Source: Pseudomonas putida (GTDB lineage Bacteria; Pseudomonadota; Gammaproteobacteria; Pseudomonadales; Pseudomonadaceae). Taken from it: a stretch of DNA of 64,000 nucleotides. A program made the position numbers and the translations under genes. Positions 4,677 through 35,013 of this stretch are shown in pieces. The stretch's first letter is position 1. Every line of letters starts with the position of its first letter. The stretch lies in NCBI RefSeq assembly GCF_002025705.1, contig NZ_CP018846.1, positions 797,501-861,500 of the forward strand. Direction: 5' to 3'. The notes under the pieces were generated by a model. The model saw only the letters and a program-made list of their open reading frames with translations, was not told where the DNA came from and did not search any database.

Positions 4677-4750
4677 TGGAGCGGGTAGAGGGAATCGAAC
4701 CCTCAACTAAAGCTTGGGAAGCTTTCGTTTTGCCACTAAACTATACCCGC
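4677..4750 (-). tRNA. tRNA-Gly (anticodon CCC)
   Basis: A full cloverleaf is readable on the minus strand: acceptor GCGGGTA pairs perfectly with TACCCGC; D arm GTTT/AAAC; anticodon stem AAAGC/GCTTT enclosing TTCCCAA, so the anticodon is CCC; T arm GAGGG/CCCTC with loop TTCGATT; discriminator T and an encoded CCA end. It decodes GGG. The gene stands alone between the sulP and phaG genes. Confidence 0.97.
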
Positions 4751-33700: not shown

Positions 33701-33760
33701 GACAGCACTGCCCCAAGGTAATGTGCAGCGCCTGTGGGAGCAACTGTCTTCTTGTGGAAG

Positions 33761-33830
33761 CTGGCCTTGCCAGCGATGGGGCGCGTAGCGCCCCGAGCCC
33801 GACTCTGTCAGGCATCGCCAGCAAGGCTGG
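33761..33830. repeat. Intergenic-type palindrome inside the IS110 3' end
   Basis: CTGGCCTTGCCAGCGATG at 33761 and CATCGCCAGCAAGGCTGG ending at 33830 form imperfect outer arms around a perfect GGGGCGC-gta-GCGCCCC hairpin (33778-33794). It resembles host intergenic palindromes although it lies within the deduced IS boundaries. Confidence 0.7.
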
Positions 33831-33833
33831 ATC

Positions 33834-34769
33834 CTATGAGTGAACTACCTGTTCCTGCCAGGGCGTTCCAGTCTTGAGCATCGCGTTCAGCCGCACTATC
33901 AATACCCGCATGCACGCCACCACTGCTACCTTCGCGCATTTCCCCTGCGCTCGCAGCGCGTTGTAACGCTCGCTGAAGTCTTTGTTATGCCGGATCACCA
34001 CCCAACAGGCCATATAGAGCGCCCGCCTGACTTGTGAGCGCCCACCCCAGATTGAACGCTTGCCCGACTGCTTGCCGCTGTCCTGATTGAATGGCGCAAC
34101 ACCGACCAAGGCGGCAATTTCCTTCTTATCCACCTGGCCCAGCTCTGGCAGCAAGGCCATCAGCTTTCCGGCAGTAATCAGACCAATTCCTTTGACTTGC
34201 GTGAGCTGTTTGACACGATCATCAGGCAAAGCTGCTGCCTGCTGTGCGATCTCCTGTTCCAGCGCTCGAATTTCACCCTTCAGATAGGCAATGTGTTGTT
34301 CCAACCGCAAACAAACACTGATAGCCCGCGCCTGCTTCAGACGCCGCTTGTCATCGTCGCGCTGTTGGACGAAGCGATCCCGCTGCATAAGCAGTTCGCG
34401 CAGCAAAGCTCGCTCAGGTGTCATCACCTGGCAAGGCCGTGGGGGCATCACTTCAGCCAGGTGAGCCAAAACAGCGGCGTCAATGGGATCGGTCTTGGCG
34501 CGTTTACCCATCGACTTGGCAAAGTCCCGGGCACGACTGGGATTGATCCGGCAAACCGGAAAGTCGGCATCCTGCAGCGCTTTGAGGACATTGCACTCGT
34601 AACCACCGGTAGCTTCGAGCAAAACCATTGAAACTGCATACCCGCCAAGCTTTTCGACGAGCAGTTGAAATCCTTTCAAGTCATTGGAAACACTGAAGTT
34701 CACACCCTCAGGGCGGATGTGAACGGCAAGTGTGGCACTGGAAACATCGATGCCGACAGAGGAAGACAT
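33834..34769 (-). CDS. IS110-family transposase (DEDD recombinase)
   Basis: A 311-residue transposase. The RuvC-like N-terminal domain has the DEDD set: D8 (VGIDVS), E52 (LLEATGGYE), D94 and D97 (KTDPIDA), with the 42- and 3-residue spacings typical of the family. The C-terminal Transposase_20 domain includes VKGIGLITAGKL and APFNQDSGKQSG, whose serine (S231) is the likely nucleophile of IS110 recombinases. The ATG at 34769 has GAGGG upstream. The frame is intact, so the element may be active. Known relatives use a bridge RNA encoded next to the gene to pair donor ends with a target. Confidence 0.93.
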   Translation of the reverse strand: MSSSVGIDVSSATLAVHIRPEGVNFSVSNDLKGFQLLVEKLGGYAVSMVLLEATGGYECNVLKALQDADFPVCRINPSRARDFAKSMGKRAKTDPIDAAVLAHLAEVMPPRPCQVMTPERALLRELLMQRDRFVQQRDDDKRRLKQARAISVCLRLEQHIAYLKGEIRALEQEIAQQAAALPDDRVKQLTQVKGIGLITAGKLMALLPELGQVDKKEIAALVGVAPFNQDSGKQSGKRSIWGGRSQVRRALYMACWVVIRHNKDFSERYNALRAQGKCAKVAVVACMRVLIVRLNAMLKTGTPWQEQVVHS

Positions 34770-34799
34770 GGCCAAACCCTCTTAAACTCAAGGAGTGAG

Positions 34800-34950
34800 A
34801 GCGCTTTGGCTTGGCCCACGCTTGTGATTCGAGATTACGGCCCTCATCCAACTGTTCGGGCTCTCGCCAAAGTGGAACGGTGAATGGCAGCTTTTGCTCC
34901 CACACGTGCTCAAGGCACCTCGGGCTATCAGCTTGCCATTCACCGCTCTC
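34800..34950 (-). ncRNA. Predicted bridge RNA of the IS110 element
   Basis: Read on the minus strand, the non-coding end folds into two loops. Loop 1: a perfect 12-bp stem (34934-34945 with 34878-34889) encloses a CCCG guide near 34921-34924 and TGTGGGAGC (34896-34904), which is the reverse complement of GCTCCCACA in the REP target. Loop 2: a 7-bp stem (34866-34872 with 34804-34810) encloses ACAGTTG (34849-34855), identical to the element's end at 33741-33747, and CACAAG (34821-34826), complementary to the other end. The order target loop then donor loop, left guide then right guide, is that of IS621-type bridge RNAs. Exact transcript ends are unknown. Confidence 0.78.
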
Positions 34951-34981
34951 ACTTCAGATTCTATTCCCTCGCCAAGACACA

Positions 34982-35013
34982 AGCGGGTTCACCCGCGAAG
35001 AGGCCGGTGCAGG
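34982..35013. repeat. Distal part of the REP split by the IS110 element
   Basis: AGCGGGTTCACCCGCGAAG followed by AGGCCGGTGCAGG. Joined to CCTGTGGGAG at 33731-33740 it restores a complete REP sharing the AG. Confidence 0.88.

Follow-up and report, generated by a model that had tools for sequence, protein, structure and literature searches.

An ISPpu10-like IS110-group element of Pseudomonas putida and its predicted bridge RNA for REP half-sites and the circle junction

Results

The window, a stretch of 64,000 nucleotides from Pseudomonas putida (contig NZ_CP018846.1), carries an IS110-group insertion sequence whose parts are listed in Table 1. Its layout is that of the IS110 group, with a left end of 212 nt up to the ATG in which the predicted non-coding RNA lies upstream of tnp, and a right end of 93 nt. 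Six full and near-identical copies, all with open frames, are present in the 6.1 Mb genome, and the copies differ from the one in the window by 0 or 2 bases per 1245 bp. When the flanks on either side of the insertion were joined, an unbroken REP was restored as judged by eye, and among the matches listed the joined flanks aligned across the junction to REP pairs elsewhere in the own genome. A full-length orthologous empty site for the window copy or for the copy L006 was not found among the matches listed, 38 genomes each. A class-wide protein search (369 genomes, E 1e-60) gave two distant relatives beyond the own genome, and a plasmid search gave 80 records, every one below 60% identity, with 43.2% for the best of the 40 listed. 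Two left-end remnants of ~50 and ~40 bases (L007:1501-1570 and L008:1501-1558) sit in REPs of this genome, and by eye they look like deletions at short repeats common to the adjacent sequence. The window also contains a tRNA gene on the minus strand at 4680-4750.

Table 1 Features of the IS110-group element and its surroundings, in window coordinates
Feature	Position	Strand	Basis
IS110-group insertion sequence, 1241 bp between two CT cores	33741..34981	-	six-copy comparison
DEDD/Tnp recombinase gene as called among the open reading frames; likelier ATG start 34769	33834..34775	-	PF01548 + PF02371
Left CT core	34982..34983	-	
Right CT core	33739..33740	-	
Left target AACCCG, half of the split REP	34984..34989	-	
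Right target CCCACA	33733..33738	-	
Left donor / right end GACAGTTG, gives TTG to the junction -35	33741..33748	-	
Right donor / left end TGTGTCTTGG	34972..34981	-	
Predicted bridge RNA core, closed by GTGAGAG/CTCTCAC	34795..34952	-	
Left target guide AGCCCG	34921..34926	-	
Right target guide GTGTGGGAG, includes AG for the CT core	34897..34905	-	
Left donor guide ACAGTTG	34849..34855	-	
Right donor guide CACAAG	34821..34826	-	
Donor-loop handshake bases CG, fit target CG	34819..34820	-	
Target-loop handshake bases CA, fit donor TG; weak	34895..34896	-	
-10-like TAGAAT, 17 bp from a -35-like TTGCTT found in the circle only	34958..34963	-	
sX15-like antisense RNA region, full-length match, 44.5 bits, E 9.4e-6	34794..34958	+	RF02234
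Antisense -10-like TAAACT	34783..34788	+	

The recombinase has a DEDD RuvC domain and a Tnp domain with a putative catalytic serine, which by domains and homology is the arrangement of the IS110 group. It matched NF033542, the model of the IS110 RNA-guided transposase, with 216.9 bits (cut-off 140), is homologous to the IS621 recombinase over residues 6-306 (E 1.5e-29), and also matched the solved recombinase of ISCro4. D9, E53, D95, D98 and S232 are invariant across an alignment of five proteins, and their catalytic role is carried over from IS621 (PMC11208158).

All six copies are inserted between CCGCT and CCCACA. Exact matches to RCCCGCTCCCACA number 381 across the genome, whereas the reversed pattern has 2. 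A canonical REP hosts five of the copies (by eye), while L006 lies at the end of a second abundant repeat, ..AAGGCCG-CT-CCCACA, ending ..AAGGCCGCTCCCACA, where the guide match is kept except for one mismatch, at -4. The second repeat class ends in AAGGCCGCTCCYACA and has 598 exact sites in which the third right base is C or T (for example C1:36130-36144); in 209 of them it is C (CCCACA). L006 was at one point taken as a non-repeat site; this was dropped, its flank belonging to the second repeat class. The proposal of the first-pass annotation that the element is programmed for the host REP needs the correction that L006 lies outside the canonical REP. Identical guides in unrelated targets, which had been named as the case against such programming, were not seen among the six copies.

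The left end folds as a target loop and a donor loop within an outer helix, and these two internal loops carry guides for both halves of target and donor, as in other members of the IS110 group. Both closing stems that had been read from the window alone are present on the minus strand: a perfect 12-bp stem around the target loop (34934-34945 with 34878-34889) and the 7-bp stem CTTTGGC/GCCAAAG around the donor loop (34866-34872 with 34804-34810). In an alignment of 36 distinct left ends, 36 named pairs were standard in 95.1% of 1290 cells, and 20 of the 36 showed changes on both sides. The covariation score was 0.258 against 0.119 for shuffled alignments, none of 500 shuffles reaching it, and it was at most 0.081 with the partners slid; four of five measures beat all 500 shuffles, and the fifth, 'further pair types', was equalled by 15 of them. 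The outer helix was the weakest stem (87.7% standard, in part from misalignment), and the hairpin between both target guides was nearly constant (columns 67-70 with 77-80).

Folding of the single sequence gave z = -4.84 for the sense and -5.24 for the antisense strand. RNAfold paired the left target guide partly with the right one, RNAalifold retained two pairs between them, and the mean unpaired probability over the 36 sequences was 0.24 for the left target guide against 0.35 for the whole RNA. Because the two target guides are partly paired in these folds, the isolated RNA fails the test, proposed beforehand, that the guides should not be buried in stems. The covariance search suggested at the same time returned no Rfam family at gathering score for this RNA region; over the whole window, at that score, a tRNA alone was found.

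The four guides in the left end follow the order of IS621. Their matches agree with the first reading of the sequence: TGTGGGAGC (34896-34904) is the reverse complement of GCTCCCACA at the insertion site, ACAGTTG equals the right end (33741-33747), CACAAG is complementary to CTTGTG of the left end, and the guide containing CCCG, AGCCCG, fits the left target AACCCG with one rG:dT wobble. This wobble, guide G against target A, occurs in L001-L003, and L004 and L005 match exactly. In the window the left target guide is followed by AG and the left donor guide by GA, and the right guides contain the AG for the CT core, implying that the core is matched by the right guides only. All four pairings of IS621 take in the core (PMC11208160), a scheme that the left guides here do not follow, so the two systems differ in this detail: an IS621-like order of loops and guides around a CT core was found as first claimed, but the left guides leave the core unpaired. 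In a distant element (L022:1308-1464, 39% recombinase identity) the left guide, GCTCCT by eye, does include the core.

We compared guides and targets in 66 element records, which gave 39 distinct guide/target pairs after removal of exact duplicates and of flanks of insufficient length or containing N (short flanks took L015, L038, L054 and L071 out of the count). Guides ending GCCGC, with L017 in the count, were shifted one base by a rule of our own, and nine left ends failing the pattern and the distant loci L072, L073 and L075-L113 stood outside the count. Positions +1 to +5 of the right target were Watson-Crick in 195 of 195 cells, with targets that include CCCAC, CCTAC and TCCTA. Positions -1 to -5 of the left target paired in 188 of 195 cells (176 Watson-Crick and 12 wobble), and the 7 mismatches include L006, L017, L070, L127 and L132. 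Further out, +6 was partly read (24/39), and -6 (Watson-Crick in 20/39) and +7 (3/39) were not clearly read. In a permutation test on 16 guide types, with one target used where a type had several, exact matches numbered 68 of 80 on the left (permuted mean 48.1; reached in 0 of 10,000 permutations) and 88 of 96 on the right (permuted mean 75.6; reached in 1 of 10,000). Guide and target were both AACCCG in L034, ATTCG in the L020 group, AGCTG in L062 (Luteimonas) and GCCAG in L069, and the right guides GUAGGAG of L059 and L062 face CCTACA targets. Since the relatives share ancestry, and the guide, stem and junction counts include kin, these counts are not independent. L034 (P. putida W15Oct28) also contains, at ~2630-2790, a partial tandem left end that is split by N and is perhaps an assembly join.

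The bases that follow the right guides of IS621 come to face the other DNA once strands have been exchanged (PMC11208158). In our set, target position -2 is matched in all 16 guide types by the base two places past the right donor guide (G opposite C in most, A opposite T in L062, U opposite A in L069), a fit equalled by a share of 0.0045 of the permutations; as two types alone vary at -2, this evidence comes from two changes. Position -1 was not tracked where it changed to C (L054, L061). For the handshake of the target loop no clear covariation with donor -2 was seen (C, A or T against donor T), and its first base alone was constant among relatives.

Joining the right and left ends, as in a circle, creates TTGCTT 17 bases ahead of a TANNNT box. 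The spacing was 17 in all 36 distinct left ends, 33 with TTGCTT and 3 with TTGGCT; in these three (L020, L068 and L133), which may represent one event, the right end has an extra G and the left end is one base shorter. The -35 slot of the integrated copy in the window is CCGCTT, and a sigma-70 scan of this copy found no promoter on either strand. We infer that joining of the circle would assemble a putative -35/-10 promoter absent from the integrated copy, with boxes of modest agreement to consensus (-35, 3/6; -10, 5/6).

The opposite strand carries a second signal. Under a permissive search the one credible weaker Rfam match of this region, below the 55-bit gathering score and on the strand opposite the transposase, was to sX15, which came from RNA sequencing of Xanthomonas; what such a match shows is homology, not transcription. 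Eleven of 12 chosen relatives also matched sX15 at E up to 0.1, each time antisense, with three over the threshold and three weak (E 0.011 to 0.079); L083 was the one without a match, and the match of L022 reached 109 bits. With stricter filters, a genus search gave sX15 in 3 of 149 genomes, 1 of them over the cut-off, while the own genome was silent and 0 of 14 control genomes matched; all eight hits were antisense to the adjacent transposase. A TANNNT box ahead of the antisense start keeps its aligned position in 35 of the 36 left ends (32 at columns 206-211, 3 at columns 207-212), the sole exception, L017, having an internal deletion there. The window shows a poor -35 for this antisense box, and the box adjoins the ribosome-binding region, which is another possible constraint. 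The antisense homology together with the conserved box implies that both strands may be transcribed, and suggests that an RNA complementary to the bridge RNA may in addition come from resident copies. In L062 a sub-threshold Rfam Xoo8 match (2513-2817, antisense, 59.6 of 90 bits, E 3.8e-14) runs from the flank into the left end.

Discussion

The anatomy of the element, the fit of guides and handshake bases across relatives, the covariation of the stems and the spacing at the junction were observed directly in the sequences compared. They make it very probable that this is an ISPpu10-like IS110-group element whose sense-strand bridge RNA would read the REP half-sites and the circle junction, with recombination at CT. 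The recombinase would excise the element as a circle, and the joined right and left ends would then build the promoter TTGCTT-17-TAGAAT, from which the left end would be transcribed into the sense-strand bridge RNA. The first loop would read the REP half-sites ARCCCG and CCCACA around CT and the second loop the circle junction, ACAGTTG and TGTG around CT, and strand exchange would follow at CT with the help of the handshake bases. In this scheme transcription, RNA binding and catalysis are taken by analogy with IS621. The first-pass annotation had called the element a complete, self-consistent bridge-RNA system aimed at the host REP, a claim that the comparative evidence from stems, guides and copies supports.

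The mechanism itself is already published, as seekRNA (PMC11187229) and as bridge RNA (PMC11208160), and the element is an ISPpu10-like IS110-group member of an already published kind. A 2006 study reported that ISPpu9 and ISPpu10 insert into REPs (PMC1525189), and the legend of Extended Data Fig. 10c in Durrant 2024 lists ISPpu10 as one of six elements for which the predicted bridge RNA, target and donor are drawn (PMC11208160). The likeness to ISPpu10 of P. putida KT2440, drawn from its published description, covers the IS110 family, the insertion into REP between its bases 9 and 10, and the 2-bp repeat (PMC1525189). With IS621 the element shares the loop order, the order (LTG-RTG-LDG-RDG) and polarity of the guides, the CT core, the location in the left end, the pattern of a putative junction promoter, the handshake bases and the homology of the recombinase (PMC11208160, PMC11208158). 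Unlike IS621, it has an outer helix that closes both loops and, in the predicted RNA, no 5' stem-loop, the target-loop stem beginning 6 nt past the start predicted from the -10 box; its target guides cover 5-6 bases past the core on the right and 5-6 on the left. The seekRNA of ISEc21 is similar in family, in its place in the upstream non-coding region (NCR) and in the order of strand matches, but has another target, and the main RNA described for it is a 74-nt target-reading form (PMC11187229). ISPpu9, with Asr9/Ssr9, also targets REP and has a small RNA antisense to the upstream non-coding region, but its left end is 328 nt (summed from the numbers in PMC8450116) against 212 here, and its repeat is printed as AG. 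RF02234 (sX15) matches over its full length but on the opposite strand, and Rfam describes it as a Xanthomonadaceae sRNA only.

The same complementarity would be available to a guide RNA made from the antisense strand, of the sX15/Asr9 kind, which we consider improbable. Such a guide would agree with the sX15 match opposite the transposase in the window, in 11 of 12 relatives and in all genus hits (8/8, in 3 of 149 genomes), and with Asr9 of ISPpu9, an abundant and very stable antisense RNA of ~180 nt with a half-life of more than 60 minutes, whose overproduction from a multicopy plasmid raised transposition 3- to 4-fold (a single copy gave twofold, P = 0.1; PMC8450116). However, only on the sense strand do the guides have the polarity towards the CT core that IS621 shows, the junction -35/-10 with its compensated spacing points into the sense strand, and the left-guide wobbles at -1 to -5, spread by eye over about four lineages, comprise 12 cells of the sense type and none of the antisense type. 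Wobbles in the stems favour neither strand clearly: G.U outnumbers A.C by 31 to 20 cells over all 36 pairs and by 18 to 7 in the 28 best-aligned pairs, yet there the pair types number 7 and 6. The transposase-bound RNA of ISEc21 moreover maps to the NCR upstream, and in it, as in the sense RNA here, the match to the bottom strand stands 5' of the match to the top strand (PMC11187229). Polarity, junction promoter and type of wobble thus favour a sense RNA.

That the structure is only a regulatory 5' UTR of the transposase, which an antisense RNA opens, while the protein itself recognises REP, is less probable still. The long folded leader and the antisense match would suit it, and ISPpu9 provides a precedent in which opening by the antisense RNA has been proposed (PMC8450116), but the loops track the targets over 16 guide types, including the other repeats ATTCG, AGCTG and GCCAG, and L006 keeps its guide match save one base in another repeat class. 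That the matches between guides and targets reflect coincidence together with the shared ancestry of element and REP is hardly credible: most relatives are indeed Pseudomonas with similar REPs and the right target CCCAC, but the left guides change with the left targets in separate lineages, with no permutation of 10,000 equal to the observed fit, and the hairpin between the guides meanwhile stays nearly constant.

The sense-strand bridge RNA predicted here is a fully annotated natural example, inserted six times in near-identical form in one genome, and its naturally reprogrammed relatives can help to learn which guide positions matter (5+CT+5, with wobble accepted and a handshake at -2). What may be new relative to published work on bridge RNA and ISPpu10 is the possible RNA antisense to the bridge RNA, which we regard as a lead. 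Among the titles and abstracts listed in searches of open-licence papers, none linking the sX15/Asr9 antisense RNA to bridge RNA was found. In the part of Durrant et al. that treats ISPpu9, its small RNAs are thought to modulate recombinase expression (PMC11208160), and in PMC6337395 sX15 appears as one table entry. If real, the link would join the published work on IS110 small RNAs with bridge RNA biology, and it predicts strand switching on excision.

A two-way switch can be proposed only tentatively from these patterns, and we would sooner bet against it: the resident copy would make only the antisense, sX15/Asr9-like RNA, the promoter of the circle would make the bridge RNA, and the antisense RNA would restrain or control the guide. 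The catalogued but role-less sRNAs of Xanthomonas and Pseudomonas would then be anti-bridge RNAs. The rise in transposition upon overproduction of asr9 speaks against a simple sponge. If the ISPpu9 repeat is AG, as printed, the strand with its CT core would be that of Asr9, and under such a switch Asr9 itself might be the bridge RNA of ISPpu9. The orphan ssr9 segments of ISPpu9, as described in PMC8450116, are flanked by A and B boxes plus AG and resemble mini-elements with ends of their own.
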